Notes under the pieces: model-generated | Database searches by the model: none | What the model was told of the DNA's origin: nothing | What the model saw: the letters and a program-made list of their open reading frames with translations, nothing else | Shown: piece after piece, positions 18,967 to 34,898 of the stretch | Layout: each line of letters begins with the position of its first letter | Position numbering within the stretch: the first letter of the stretch is position 1 | Origin: Brumimicrobium glaciale | Lineage (GTDB): Bacteria > Bacteroidota > Bacteroidia > Flavobacteriales_D > Crocinitomicaceae | Assembly (NCBI RefSeq): GCF_004152935.1 | Contig: NZ_SETE01000005.1 | Coordinates: 310,001-374,000, forward strand | Length of the DNA: 64,000 bases | Reading direction: 5' to 3' | Made by a program: the position numbers and the translations under genes

Positions 18967-19190
18967 GTTATGATTTGAACTGAGGTGGGCGATTTACTTT
19001 TAATAATTAAAGGTAGTGCTTTAGACTGTGGTGGATGATTTGCTTTTAATAATTAAAGGTAGTGCTTTAGACTGAGGAGGATGATTTGCTTTTAATAATT
19101 AAAGGTAGTGCTTTAAACTGTGGTGGACGATTTGCTTTTAGTAATTAAAGGTAGTGCTTTAAACTGTGGTGGACGATTTGCAAATCGTCC
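18967..19190. repeat. 46-bp tandem repeat array ending in a 20-bp palindrome (locus B)
   Basis: Units start at 18967, 19013, 19059, 19105 and 19151, exactly 46 bases apart; the fifth is incomplete. Each holds AACTGTGGTGGACGATTTGC or a near variant, followed by TTTTAATAATTAAAG and GTAGTGCTTT. In the last unit the half-site is completed to the perfect palindrome GGACGATTTGCAAATCGTCC (19171-19190) and the array stops. There is no gene within it. Confidence 0.9.
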
Positions 19191-19333: not shown

Positions 19334-20866
19334 CTATTTCGCGTAATTCACAGATCTTCTTTCACGAATCAAAGTCACTTTTACTTGACCTGGATACGTC
19401 ATTTCAGTTTGAATTTTTTGTGAGATGGCAAAAGAAAGTTCATCAGCTTTTAAATCTGATACTTTCTCACTTTCTACCATAACGCGTAATTCTCTACCTG
19501 CTTGAATAGCGTAGGCTTTAATTACACCATCATACGAAAGTGCATGGTTCTCTAATTCTTTAATTCTGTTGATGTACGATTCTACAACTTCGCGACGTGC
19601 TCCTGGACGTGCTCCAGAAATAGCATCCGCTATCTGAACAAGTGGAGAAATCATTGTTGTCATTTCAATTTCATCGTGGTGAGCTCCAATTGCATTACAA
19701 ACATCTGGTTTTTCACCAAATTTTTCTGCAATTTTCATCCCCAAAATAGCGTGTGGCAATTCTGGTTCGTCCTCTGGAACTTTTCCAATATCGTGAAGCA
19801 ATCCAGCACGTTTCGCCAATTTCACGTTCAATCCTAACTCTGCAGCCATGATTGCACAAATATTTGCTACTTCTCTACTGTGTTGCAATAGGTTTTGTCC
19901 ATAAGAAGAACGGTATTTCATTCGACCTACCATTTTCAATAACTCAGGATGTAAACCATGAATTCCTAAATCGATACAAGTACGGCGACCTGTTTCAGCG
20001 ATTTCATCATCTAAAGATTTTCTTGTTTTAGCAACAACTTCTTCAATTCTTGCTGGGTGAATACGTCCATCAGAAACCAATTGGTGCATTGCTAATCTCG
20101 CGATTTCTCTTCTCACTGGGTCAAAGCATGAAAGTAAAATTGCTTCTGGTGTATCATCTACAACGATTTCAACTCCTGTAGCAGCTTCTAAGGCACGGAT
20201 ATTTCTACCTTCACGACCAATAATTCTACCTTTTACCTCATCTGAGTCAATGTTAAAGACAGAAACGGCATTTTCAACTGCTTGCTCATGTGCAACCCTT
20301 TGAATTGCTTGAATAATAATTTTCTTCGCCTCTTTGTTGGCGTTCAATTTAGCTTCATCAACGATGTCTTTAATATGAGACATTGCGCCTGTTCGGGCTT
20401 CGTCTTTCAATGCTTCCATCAATTGTTTCTTCGCTTCTTCAACATCCATTCCTGAAATACGCGACAATTCTAAAACACGCTTGTCTTGCATTTTCTCAAG
20501 CTCATCATGCTTTGCTTGCGTCAATTGAATTTTCTCTTCTAATGTTGCATCCTTCGAATCGACTGACTTTTCCTTGCGGTTTATTTCTTCAATCTTTTTA
20601 GATAAATTTTTCTCTTTCGCTTTCGCTCTGTCCTCTGCTGATTGAAGTTTGCGTTCACGATCTTTCATTGTGTTCTCGTGGTCCTCTTTCAAGTTTAAAA
20701 ACTTCTCTTTGGCTTGAATAATCTTATCTTTTCTGATAGATTCCCCTTCGATTTCAGCCTCTTTTATGATTTGTTCTTTTCTTTTCTTCAATAATACATT
20801 CTGTACTATCACGGCAAGTATGACTCCTATTATCAGTCCTATACTTACTCCTATTATTATTTCCAT
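19334..20866 (-). CDS. rny: Ribonuclease Y
   Basis: A 510-residue membrane-anchored endoribonuclease that starts mRNA decay. Residues 4-25 form the N-terminal anchor, followed by a long charged coiled coil to about 200, the KH RNA-binding loop [12 protein letters not shown], and the HD nuclease domain with [12 protein letters not shown] and [10 protein letters not shown]. Length and domain order are normal. It follows zapA on the same strand after 91 bases that hold a strong hairpin, so its expression may be partly uncoupled from the division genes. Confidence 0.93.
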
Positions 20867-20957: not shown

Positions 20958-21245
20958 TTACTCTACTTCTATATTTTGAGACAATACTTTCAAGGCATCT
21001 AGCATTTCAGTTTTCAATACACGCTCTTTTCCATCTGAAGGAGCTGTATTTGCACGTGTTGCCAATTGCAATGAAGTCATCGCTAATAAATCTTGCATAT
21101 CTTTTACTGCATAACTCTCTTGTAGCTTTTGAACATTGGTATTGATATCTTCCACAGCTTTACGAACCAATTCCTCTTCACCTTCATTAATGGTGAGCGG
21201 ATAATTGCGTCCGGCAATAACTATTTTAATTGATACTTTACTCAT
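20958..21245 (-). CDS. zapA: Cell division protein ZapA
   Basis: A 95-residue protein matching ZapA: MSKVSIKIVIAGRNYPLTI at the start, then EEELVRKAVEDINTNVQKL, and a helix with LLAMTSLQLA. ZapA dimers bundle FtsZ filaments at the division ring. It is preceded by a coiled-coil gene after a 6-base gap and followed by rny. Start and length are typical for Bacteroidota. Confidence 0.9.
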   Translation of the reverse strand: MSKVSIKIVIAGRNYPLTINEGEEELVRKAVEDINTNVQKLQESYAVKDMQDLLAMTSLQLATRANTAPSDGKERVLKTEMLDALKVLSQNIEVE

Positions 21246-21251
21246 ATATAT

Positions 21252-21548
21252 TTATGCTTTCAATCGACCTATACAGTCATCTATTTCCCTTACTAGTGCG
21301 TCAATCTGAACTTCGTTCCCTTTTTTGCTTTGATTTTCAAGCGAAAGGCGTTCCTCATGTTGACGCATTAAATCATCGTACTTGTCTCTGAAATCTTTAA
21401 CTTCTTCAGCGCGTTGACTCAATTTCTCATTAAGCAACTGCACTTCTGATGTCAATTCATTATTTTCAGATTTAACATCAACAAGCGAAGTCCGCATTTT
21501 TGCGACCTTTGACTCTATTTCTGCTATGACTTTTTGAATTTCTTCCAT
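21252..21548 (-). CDS. ZapB-like coiled-coil protein
   Basis: A 98-residue protein predicted to be almost wholly coiled coil (IAEIESKVAKMRTSLVDVKS ... LLNEKLSQRAEEVKDF ... ALVREIDDCIGRLKA). It lies 6 bases upstream of zapA. In E. coli, ZapB is a coiled coil that works with ZapA, and a short coiled-coil gene beside zapA is common in Bacteroidota; homology to ZapB cannot be shown from a coiled coil alone. It likely helps organise the Z ring. A near-canonical promoter precedes it. Confidence 0.7.
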   Translation of the reverse strand: MEEIQKVIAEIESKVAKMRTSLVDVKSENNELTSEVQLLNEKLSQRAEEVKDFRDKYDDLMRQHEERLSLENQSKKGNEVQIDALVREIDDCIGRLKA

Positions 21549-21564
21549 TTTTGTACGAATAACA

Positions 21565-21595
21565 CAAAGATAATACTTGCATGGATATAAAGCAA
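21565..21595 (-). promoter_or_regulatory. Promoter of the zapB-like/zapA operon
   Basis: On the minus strand TTG (21593-21595) is followed after 20 bases by TATCTTTG (21565-21572), the best match in the window to the two-part Bacteroidota promoter, and the ATG comes 16 bases later. Confidence 0.7.
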
Positions 21596-21632
21596 TTATT
21601 TTTTGGAATGATTTTCATCAATGTTTTGTGCA

Positions 21633-21827
21633 ATGTGACCAATGGTTTTACCGAATGGTAATACGCGATGGTTATACCCAATAGTTATACGCGATGGTTT
21701 TTTTAATGTGGTGGCGCAAATGCCCAACTGTGGTGGCGCAATGTTCAATTGTGGTGGTGCAATGTCCAATTGTGGTGGCGCAAATATCCAACTGTGGAGG
21801 CGCAATGCATTGCGCCTCTACAGTTGG
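21633..21827. repeat. Compound tandem repeat ending in a 40-bp palindrome (locus C)
   Basis: Five imperfect 13-bp units (21633-21697; for example TTATACGCGATGG) are followed by five 21-22-bp units starting at 21708, 21730, 21751, 21772 and 21794, each with GTGGTGGCGCAA or a close variant. The last unit is the left half of a 40-bp palindrome (arms 21788-21807 and 21808-21827, core GGCGCAATGCATTGCGCC) with one G-T mismatch pair. It starts 6 bases after the icmF stop on the minus strand. Confidence 0.9.
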
Positions 21828-21832
21828 GAATA

Positions 21833-24800
21833 TTACATATTTCTCCTATACTGCCCTCCAACATTAAACAAAGCATTTGTAATTTGTCCTAATGAACAGA
21901 ACTTACTTGCTTCCATTAATTTTTCGAACATATTCTCGTTGTTGATTGCTGCTTCTTGAAGAATTGCTAACCATTTTTCGGATTCGTCTTTGCGTGCTAC
22001 TTTTAATTCAGTAAGCATTTCAATTTGATATTGCTTTTCTTCTTCTGTTGCACGAATTACTTCTTTCGGAATAATTGTTGGCGAACCTGCTGCACTCTTG
22101 AAGGTATTTACTCCAATAATTGGAAATTCACCAGTGTGTTTCAATGTCTCGTAATGCAACGATTCTTCTTGAATTTTAGAACGCTGATACATTGTTTCCA
22201 TTGCACCAAGCACTCCACCTCTTTCTGTAATTCTATCGAATTCTGTTAAAACAGCTGCTTCAACTAAATCGGTTAATTCTTCAATGATGAATGAACCTTG
22301 AATTGGATTTTCGTTTTTCGCTAAACCTAACTCTTTGTTAATGATCAACTGAATTGCCATTGCTCTACGTACAGAATCTTCTGTAGGTGTTGTAATTGCT
22401 TCATCATAAGCGTTTGTATGCAATGAGTTACAGTTGTCATATATTGCGTAAAGCGCTTGAAGCGTCGTACGAATATCGTTGAAGTTAATTTCTTGTGCAT
22501 GTAATGAACGCCCAGATGTTTGAATGTGGTATTTCAACATTTGAGCACGTTTGTTCGCTCCGTATTTCTCACGCATTGCTTTCGCCCAAATTCTTCTTGC
22601 AACTCTACCAATAACGGCATATTCTGGATCAACTCCATTAGAAAAGAAGAAAGAAAGGTTTGGACCAAACTCGTTGATGTCCATTCCACGGCTTAAGTAA
22701 TATTCAACATACGTAAATCCGTTAGAAAGTGTCAATGCCAATTGTGTAATTGGATTTGCTCCTGCTTCCGAAATATGGTATCCTGAAATTGATACGGAAT
22801 AGAAGTTACGTACTTTTTCTTTGATGAAATATTCTTGAACATCTCCCATTAAACGCAATGCAAATTCTGTGGAGAAAATACATGTGTTTTGTGCTTGATC
22901 TTCTTTTAAAATATCTGCTTGAACTGTTCCACGAACTACTGAAAGTGTATCTTTCTTAATTTGAGCGTAAACATCTGCTGGTAAAACTTGATCTCCTGTT
23001 ATTCCTAATAACATCAAACCTAAACCATCATTTCCTTGAGGAAGTTCACCTTGATAAACAGGCTGTTTCGTTCCTAAAGCATCAAAAATTGACTTTATTT
23101 TTTCACGAACTTCGTCTTCTAATTCATTTGCAACAATGTATTTCTCACATGCTTGATCAATCGCCGTATTCATGAAATAACCTAGCAACATAGGCGCTGG
23201 ACCATTAATGGTCATAGAAACCGATGTTTTAGGATCACTTAAATCGAAACCAGAATATAATTTCTTAGCATCATCTAAACAACAGATAGAAACACCTGAA
23301 TTACCGATTTTACCATAAATATCTGGACGATCAGCAGGATCGTTTCCGTATAATGTTACCGAGTCAAACGCTGTTGAAAGACGTTTTGCTGGCATTCCTA
23401 AACTTACATAATGGAAACGCTTATTTGTACGTTCCGGTCCTCCTTCACCTGCAAACATTCTTGTTGGATCTTCTCCTTCACGTTTGAATGGGAATAATCC
23501 CGCAGTGTAAGGAAATTCTCCCGGTACATTTTCTTGCAATAACCATCTTAAAATATCTCCCCAAGAAGAATATTTTGGTAAAGCTATTTTAGGAATCTGT
23601 AAATGAGAAAGTGATTCAGTATGTGTTTGAATTTTTAATTCTTTATCACGCACTTTGAAAGTAAACTCTGGGTCTTTGTACTTCTGTACTTTATCTCCCC
23701 AAGTTTCAATTGCCTCCATATTGTGAGGATTCAAGTCCATTTTTAAAGTCTCAAAAGTCTCCGTTAATCTTTTTACCAAACGGTCTTTGTCTTCTAATTC
23801 ACTTTCTGAAATCGTATCAATTGTTCCTTGAATATTGTACAATTTATCTGCAACGATAACTTGCGCATCTACCCAACGGTCATACGCACGGTTGCTTTCA
23901 GATATTTCAGATAAGTAACGTGTTCTTTCTGGTGGAATAACAAATATCTTCTCAGACATTTCGTCTGTAATCTCAAAAGTAGAAACTAATTTTGTATCCG
24001 TTTTATCCTGTAAAGTTTGTAAAATCACTTTGTATAATTGATTCATTCCTGGATCGTTAAACTGCGATGCAATTGTTCCAAAAACAGGCATTGAATCTAC
24101 TGGCTTATCAAAAAGCACATGATTTCTTTGGTATTGCTTACGTACATCTCTCAATGCATCTAAAGCTCCACGTTTGTCAAATTTATTAAGCGCTATAACA
24201 TCAGCGAAGTCCAACATGTCAATTTTCTCTAATTGAGTTGCTGCTCCGTATTCTGGCGTCATTACATATAAACTCACATCGGAGTGGTCCATAATTTCAG
24301 TATCCGATTGACCGATTCCAGAAGTTTCCAAAATAATCAAATCAAATTCTGCTGCTTTCAACACCAATAATGTCTCCCCAACATACTTTGACAATGCCAA
24401 GTTGGATTGTCTAGTCGCCAAAGAACGCATGTAAACCCTATCGTCTGAAATTGAATTCATACGAATTCTATCTCCCAATAAAGCTCCTCCAGTTTTTCTT
24501 TTGGAAGGATCTACAGAAACAACTGCAATTCTTTTGTCATCGAAATCTATAAGAAAACGACGCACCAATTCATCCACCAAAGAAGATTTTCCAGAACCAC
24601 CCGTTCCAGTAATTCCTAAAACAGGAACATTTGCTTTTTCGGCTAAAATGTGCATTTCGTCCAATAAAGCTTTTGACTCTTCAGGATAATTTTCAGCTGC
24701 TGAAATCACTTTTGCGATATCTGCATCTTTCTTATTCTTTAAAATCTTTGGATCAATATTAACGTTTTGTCCAACTGGAAAGTCAGATTTCTCGATTAAA

Positions 24801-25213
24801 TCATTGATCATTCCTTGCAAGCCCATCTCACGACCATCATCTGGATGATAAATTCGTGTGATACCGTAAGCTTGTAATTCTTCAATTTCAGAAGGTAGAA
24901 TTGTTCCTCCACCTCCTGCAAAGATTTTAATTTGTGGCGCTCCTCTTTCCTGAAGCAAATCGTACATGTATTTTAAATATTCTGTATGTCCTCCTTGGTA
25001 AGAAGTCATTGCGATTGCCTGAACATCTTCTTGAATTGCACAGTTCACCACCTCATCAACACTTCTATCGTGTCCAAGGTGAATCACTTCACAACCGGAA
25101 GCTTGAATGATTCTACGCATTACGTTAATAGCCGCATCGTGGCCATCAAAAAGTGATGCTGCAGTAACTATTCTAACTTTATTCTTCGTTTTATAAGGTA
25201 ATATTTTCTCCAT
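21833..25213 (-). CDS. icmF: Fused isobutyryl-CoA mutase (IcmF)
   Basis: A 1126-residue fusion in IcmF order: B12-binding domain (1-145, DGHD at 23-26 with His25 as the expected cobalt ligand), MeaB-like GTPase chaperone (about 195-410, GTGGSGKS at 203-210, [16 protein letters not shown]), and mutase barrel (about 530-1126). The substrate region reads [20 protein letters not shown], typical of IcmF rather than methylmalonyl-CoA mutase. The family interconverts isobutyryl-CoA and n-butyryl-CoA with adenosylcobalamin; some also act on isovaleryl/pivalyl-CoA. It implies B12 use. It has its own promoter, and a large palindrome follows the stop. Confidence 0.92.
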
Positions 25214-34635: not shown

Positions 34636-34867
34636 TTATTAATGGTAAATTATTAATGTTTAACGCCCGTGGATATTGAATTTCTACACATTAGAAATTA
34701 TGGTTAATTTTCCGAAAGTAGTGTACAGCGCAAACCCGTTAACCATTAAACCTTAAACATTAATAATTAAAAACGTCCAGCGCAATTCACGTTAACCATT
34801 AAACCTTAAACATTAATAATTATAACAGCGCAAACCACGTTAAACATTAAACAATAATAATTAATCA
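34636..34867. repeat. AT-rich repeats, including a three-unit tandem
   Basis: After the aminopeptidase stop comes TTATTAATGGTAAATTATTA (34636-34660). Then three imperfect units begin with CAGCGCAA at 34726, 34778 and 34826 (52 and 48 bases apart), each continuing ACGTTAAnCATTAAAC and ending ATTAATAATTA. The two parts are in opposite orientation and could pair. No gene is present up to 34938. Confidence 0.75.
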
Positions 34868-34898
34868 TTAGAAACCCTTTCAATACTCTCAAATTCTG

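Follow-up and report, generated by a model that had tools for sequence, protein, structure and literature searches.

Locus-specific palindromic arms and half-element arrays at a putative RAYT-type REP behind icmF in Brumimicrobium

RAYTs of subclass 2.4 (group 4 of Bertels) occur in Bacteroidetes, Cyanobacteria and scattered phyla together with double-foot REPs, which begin with GT[AG]G, end with C[TC]AC, and lie near the RAYT gene as well as in frame inside it, between HuH and Y (PMC6006769). Other REPs carry a GTAG foot, sometimes GTGG, sit just past the stop codons of genes in convergent or unidirectional arrangement, and form clusters that include flanking DNA (PMC3733652); in the accessible part of that report the GTAG repeats come from Proteobacteria, Cyanobacteria, Chloroflexi and PVC bacteria, and Bacteroidetes are listed only for CGTC repeats. 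REPINs, palindromic RAYT-linked elements built of two REPs around an element-owned spacer, show compensatory hairpin changes and tandem clusters that take in flanking sequence (PMC3116915). Template switching, in which inverted copying makes or repairs stems and leaves multi-base compensatory changes, has been argued for RNA genes (PMC8794818), with no tie to REPs or tandem half-units in the portion of that paper available to us.

Here we compare these systems with a palindrome of Brumimicrobium glaciale, found in a window of 64,000 nucleotides (the whole stretch analysed; NZ_SETE01000005.1, positions 310,001 to 374,000). The palindrome spans 40 bp (21788-21827) and has two arms of 20 bp (21788-21807 and 21808-21827) that are 95% complementary with a spacer of 0. 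It sits behind the stop of icmF (21833..25213, minus strand, in the ORF list), a fused isobutyryl-CoA mutase/GTPase (the IcmF model NF045497 scores 1766.9 bits, above its cut-off of 1500); the gene ends at 21833, and five bases separate its stop codon from the palindrome. The next gene downstream in the same direction encodes 98 aa with no Pfam family (21252..21548, minus strand) and is followed by zapA (20958-21245).

The centre of the palindrome is a strandless 28-bp core, GTGGAGGCGCAATG joined directly to CATTGCGCCTCTAC (21794..21821), that has one mismatch against the GTAG..CTAC form; its feet, GTGG..CTAC, fit the GT[AG]G 5′ and C[TC]AC 3′ pattern. The outer parts are a left arm, ccaact (21788..21793), which pairs with 21822-21827 and is unlike the arms of other copies, and a right arm on the icmF side, agttgg (21822..21827), which differs from its orthologue in congener G002 jointly with the left arm; neither arm has a strand assigned. 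A sequence-only reading of this DNA had described a 40-bp palindrome with one G-T pair and no loop. The missing loop stands, but the odd pair is G.T on the plus strand only and becomes A.C in icmF mRNA, where the fold leaves it open. That reading had also expected a very stable hairpin just past the stop, and the minus-strand mRNA bears this out (-29.7 kcal/mol, z = -8.28; 0/200 shuffles equally stable); protection of icmF mRNA by this putative 3′ hairpin is a possible role. Membership of an Rfam RNA family was rejected, with 0 matches at gathering score in the 64-kb window.

Two tandem blocks adjoin the palindrome. The first, a plus-strand array found by TRF at 21707..21807 (period 21, 4.7 copies, 83% matches), was scanned with the 14-nt palindrome half GTRGWGRCGCAATG. 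Four plus-strand half-element units were found ahead of the palindrome, at 21708..21721 (GTGGTGGCGCAAAT, with an extra A ahead of the final G; 12/14), 21730..21743 (14/14), 21751..21764 (13/14) and 21772..21785 (12/14), and the palindrome's own left half at 21794 scores 14/14. Judged by this run of scores, the block is a stack of half-elements set head-to-tail, with spacers of ~7-8 nt, plus the local arm. The second block (21641..21699, no strand) has a period of 13, 4.5 copies, 73% matches and 12% indels in TRF, or alternatively a period of 26 over 21642-21699 (2.2 copies, 87% matches). It shows no significant likeness to the half-element (P = 0.15 and 0.22) and is absent from the icmF site of G002 and G003. 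The palindrome and both adjoining blocks claimed in the sequence-only reading are thus real, but the 21-bp block ends in a unit that is itself the palindrome's left half, which makes block and palindrome a single structure, and the supposed 13-bp repeat is weak as such. What that reading missed is the RAYT-type REP identity of the element, the half-REP nature of the 21-bp block and the locus-specific outer part of the palindrome.

In the window the core matches only the icmF palindrome (100 shuffles average 0.00). Genome-wide, GTRGAGRCGCAATGCATTGCGYCTCYAC has 17 copies in 4.27 Mb at up to three mismatches, and the reversed pattern has 0. A core unique in the genome would have refuted the sequence-only reading; it is instead repeated here and, by the wider scan given next, across Bacteroidota, as that reading had suspected. 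The core is found in three of ten genus genomes, with 15, 6 and 18 copies (at most two mismatches from a slightly wider pattern), and a sample of 299 genomes from the order has it in 18. The exact 28 bp are present in at least 117 GTDB stretches; among the matches listed, 81 are Bacteroidota by title and 36 are not (Planctomycetaceae 11, Desulfamplus 10, Fibrimonadales 4, Chitinispirillia 4, Kuenenia 2, Balneolia 2, Wallbacteria 1, Anaerolineales 1 and another bacterium 1). GTRG/CYAC feet stand at both core ends. The A/T form of the core had 0 exact matches in viral_contigs, 21700-21840 was unmatched among plasmids, and the exact core letters had no match in the text of the open-access literature searched. 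No target-site duplication was seen at 34/39 genus copies or 127/140 other copies; the remainder show short flank duplications (2 bp at 5/39 and 2-4 bp at 13/140, respectively), which we take to be chance. Copies closer to the end of a locus or contig than a limit of 45 to 300 nt, set separately in each script, and same-context duplicates were excluded from the arm, array, position and flank counts, as were two extra core-like sites (L034 and L037); one own copy (C5:180394) lies outside the array, foot, orthologue, RAYT-order and position counts, which therefore use 16 own copies.

A gene for a 174-aa RAYT (C1:565143-565664) stands at a distance of 89 bp from one core copy, that at C1:565754. 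Its only NCBIfam match is REP_Tyr_transpos (NF047646; 51.4 bits, E = 1.1e-13), under the cut-off of 80, and Pfam gives a sub-threshold Y1_Tnp match (E = 0.22). When a profile of eight relatives was compared with solved structures, the top match was 4er8, TnpArep (1.3e-6); the sole other structure match, Atg17 (4.9e-4), is taken to be chance. In the RAYT alignment (A1) neither the HuH histidines nor the tyrosine varies, and NH[IFV]H, a motif shared with the subclass 2.4 system, is present in 8/8 sequences (NHIH in the own RAYT). Agreement with that system (PMC6006769) is incomplete: WQ is found in 6/8 and YIxNNP in 4/8, the own RAYT having WK, as does that of G003, and YIIENP, and no REP lies between HuH and Y of the own-genome gene. 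Outside the genus, the element sits in frame at that position in 12/16 distinct RAYT genes (by eye, among the matches listed), where its translation is RDAMHCVST, VETQCIASL or something close to these.

RAYT and core are also associated across genomes. Within the genus, a close RAYT (E = 1.5e-66 or better) is found in the same 3/10 genomes as the core, the next congener reaching 8.3e-28, and RAYT orthologues stand beside the core in G003 and in G002, where the gene spans two frames. In the order sample, a RAYT match at 1e-10 or better is present in 14/18 core-bearing and 54/281 other genomes (P = 4.5e-7, an optimistic value given that related genomes are not independent), leaving 4/18 core-bearing genomes with none at that threshold. 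RAYTs were found at 11 of the 117 GTDB loci listed and 6 of 15 new order-sample loci (L191 being weak, and L094 and L189 one place). For each of the nine Y1 transposases found through Pfam, the fetched locus lacks any core half (GGCGCAATG, GACGCAATG or complements). Because its feet, the RAYT 89 bp away and the in-frame copies in RAYT genes match the published system, we assign the element, on sequence features, to the known double-foot REP/RAYT subclass 2.4 kind; it is not new in itself. In a Paludibacter bin (L113:7319-7500), half-elements recur every 27 bp in frame inside a RAYT gene and yield repeated RDAMHDDNC peptides, and a second own-genome RAYT-like ORF (L024:1479-2310) has a long repeated stretch ahead, translated in the ORF as HHPTSTTQHPPPN repeats.

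What surrounds the core is less familiar. At genus copies the palindrome extends 6-16 bp into site-specific flanking DNA, and 27/39 copies have exact arms of at least 6 bp, against 0.7% when flanks of different copies are cross-paired. Outside the genus, among the matches listed, 18/140 copies have such arms (control 0.2%) and 122/140 fall under 6 bp. Arm DNA is thus site-specific though the core is fixed, and copies in other hosts mostly have bare ends. With host groups that were named after the arm data had been seen, presence or absence of arms of at least 5 bp splits largely by host: arms are found in the Saprospiraceae ACE_BAC21 (4/5) and MAG-37 (3/3), one Chitinophagaceae bin (3/3), four single-copy bins (4/4) and order relatives (7/14), in contrast to Planctomycetaceae (0/12), Desulfamplus (0/10), Mucilaginibacter (0/9), Parapedobacter (1/7), three further single-copy bins (0/3) and the rest (0/70). 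On whether arms track RAYT clade, 11/15 inner branches of a RAYT tree are open.

Orthologous copies show how the arms change. Thirteen sites are common to two or three congeners (the L011 site, with G000 and G003, and the pairs L044/L067 and L045/L046 lie outside these) and give 15 orthologue comparisons at ten arm positions each. Of the 150 positions, 106 pair in each of the two orthologues; among these, 79 have stayed the same and 27 differ on both sides. A further 38 pair in just one of the two, and 6 do not pair at all. At icmF, the arms are tccaact/agttggg in this genome and ttttataat/gatttaaaat in that of G002, and beyond them, on the icmF side, the two sequences are near-identical. Adjacent multi-base arm differences separate the orthologues L062/L068, L013/L044 and L008/L047. 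The arms are inverted copies of each other that change in concert, as would be expected of a template-switch product. Four RAYT genes (L108, L195, L196 and L197) also have arms of 5-10 bp around the in-gene copy, and therefore neither a terminator nor a 3′ UTR can explain the arms there.

Half-unit arrays likewise vary between orthologues. The icmF-site copy has four half-units here and one in G002, and in G003 decay has left it a single good half. Two additional half-units of L004 are absent from its orthologue L061, L059 has a degenerate array absent from L007, and L067 has two units absent from L013 and L044. In the own genome a half-unit search hit 43 places, 5 of them away from any core, compared with 4 for the reversed pattern; arrays therefore occur at cores. 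Half-units adjoin 10/21 GTGG ends, 5/53 GTAG ends and 1/6 other ends (GTGG versus GTAG, P = 6e-4, at a score cut-off of 11 with a shuffled control of 0.4%; an earlier cut-off of 9 gave P = 0.19). Distal array spacers are like the inverted opposite arm in 4/16 cases (combined P = 0.013), which lends weak support to snap-back, the process set out below.

We infer that the icmF palindrome is a double-foot REP copy that was moved, now or formerly, by a subclass 2.4 (group 4) RAYT, and that would have settled behind icmF before the species split from two congeners. At such a loop-less 28-bp palindrome the nascent strand could snap back during replication and copy the flank of the opposite side. One event of this sort would overwrite one flank with the other in inverted form, producing locus-specific arms, and re-priming of the strand at the palindrome centre would add an extra half-element with its arm, hence the 21-bp array. 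As a whole explanation, a RAYT-type REP with snap-back growth of arms and array is, in our judgement, probably correct. Snap-back (template-switch) synthesis would account best for both arms and array; it is the simplest route to an inverted flank, to a concerted multi-base change and to a reiterated half-element plus arm.

Parts of this pattern have precedents, since REPIN clusters include flanks and REPINs show compensatory changes (PMC3116915). The differences lie in the layout: here the core lacks a loop and stays constant, and the outer arms consist of host DNA, whereas the REPIN spacer belongs to the element, and the GTAG-tagged REPs, which share the GTAG/GTGG foot, the position behind stops and clusters with flanking DNA, have in the available part of PMC3733652 the tag on one end and whole REPs as cluster units. 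The accessible text on subclass 2.4 (PMC6006769), which agrees in both feet and in REPs near and inside the RAYT gene, leaves locus-specific arms and half-element arrays unmentioned, and we found no report of the two in the open-access literature searched.

Several observations tell against snap-back. No direct event was seen among the orthologues, and the adjacent multi-base differences lack a close ancestor; the 38/150 arm positions paired in one orthologue only also speak against it, as do arms with T-runs and little G that are unlike random flanks, the poor match of distal array spacers to the inverted opposite arm (4/16), and half-arrays that favour GTGG feet, which the model does not predict. 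Since most copies in other hosts lack arms, the palindrome cannot suffice by itself. With these points in mind we propose tentatively, at somewhat less than even confidence, that the 28-bp REP acts as a seed at which the host writes inverted copies of adjoining DNA, giving new locus-specific hairpins and half-arrays at gene ends; pairing would be kept by repeated snap-back and not by selection, and this would happen only in some host lineages despite the identical element.

A serious rival, if an unlikely one, is selection for an mRNA 3′ hairpin, under which compensated arm changes are kept because the stem protects mRNA or separates convergent transcripts. The position of the copies speaks for it. 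In the genus, 38/40 analysed copies sit between predicted genes (convergent in 18 cases, tandem in 14 and divergent in 6), the median distance past the stop being 16.5 nt, and the two inside ORFs (L002 and L056) fall in ORFs of 100 and 180 aa that are possibly spurious; convergent sites make up 18/38, compared with 8/41 intergenic sites in a baseline drawn from the window only (P = 0.016). Recurrence of T-run/A-run arms points the same way. Read toward the core, genus flanks have T-runs at about -6 to -10 and are C-rich and almost G-free next to the core; within 20 nt, T5 occurs on 40/80 and A5 on 8/80 flanks, compared with 4/35 and 6/35 in the 30 nt after ordinary window stops, and with 34/286 and 16/286 in other lineages among the matches listed. 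Arms of this composition are found also on other GTAG-footed hairpins of core-free congeners (L216:1908-1954, L217:1305-1353 and L226:2039-2078; 2/3 with T-run/A-run arms), namely at the same sites in G001 and G004, but not on the GTAG hairpin of G009. Three of ten long hairpins in 66.6 kb hold GTAG, while permuted tetramers average 0.55. Shared GTAG hairpins with such arms suggest that the elements either favour the same targets or serve the same RNA function, and the T-run, G-poor flanks of the genus fit neither snap-back nor RNA selection well. Against RNA selection, wobble-type and other mismatches are equally rare (8 and 8 arm cells, next to 374 Watson-Crick), adjacent positions change together in the three orthologue pairs named above, arms surround in-gene copies, and in most other hosts the same element lacks them.

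The foot preference of the half-units, which implies that the foot matters, could instead mean that the RAYT itself makes the array, cleaving and rejoining single-stranded half-elements beside a resident copy. A model of REP arrays arising from RAYT processing has been reported (PMC3733652), but the units hold local flank DNA besides the element, and the family's majority foot is GTAG, not GTGG; we regard this origin as improbable. Less probable still is a preference of the element for inserting into pre-existing palindromes such as terminator loops. Canonical terminators do stand in G009 at the L011 site and in G004 at the L013 site, but the L011 site of G001 lacks a hairpin of this sort, in-gene copies carry arms, and at genus copies the T-run comes before the stem whichever strand is read, the opposite of a terminator. 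That the palindrome is the intrinsic terminator of icmF is least likely of all: a stable GC-rich hairpin lies directly past the stop, but, as the sequence-only reading had said of the T tract, none follows the stem on either strand, and 0 terminator-like sites were found at 21500-21900 on both strands.

Snap-back thus remains the preferred reading, and the contrast between hosts gives it wider interest: identical 28-bp elements carry concerted locus-specific stems in certain hosts but end bare elsewhere. They supply natural replicates by the dozen that could separate mutational stem-making by template switching from RNA-structure selection, a question raised for RNA genes (PMC8794818), and compensatory changes at such hairpins alone do not prove RNA function.

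Further repeats were seen near these elements and elsewhere in the window. Outside the arms at L011:1460-1580 lies another inverted pair, GGCATTT ... AAATGCC, together with what remains of a half-REP; it was not seen there in G002, G003 or G001 and resembles the product of a second snap-back. An array of period 46 (18974-19181, 4.5 copies), whose unit holds GTGGTGG, follows the stop of rny (RNase Y, 19334-20866), and an array of period 48 (34725-34875, 3 copies) lies between two plus-strand ORFs.
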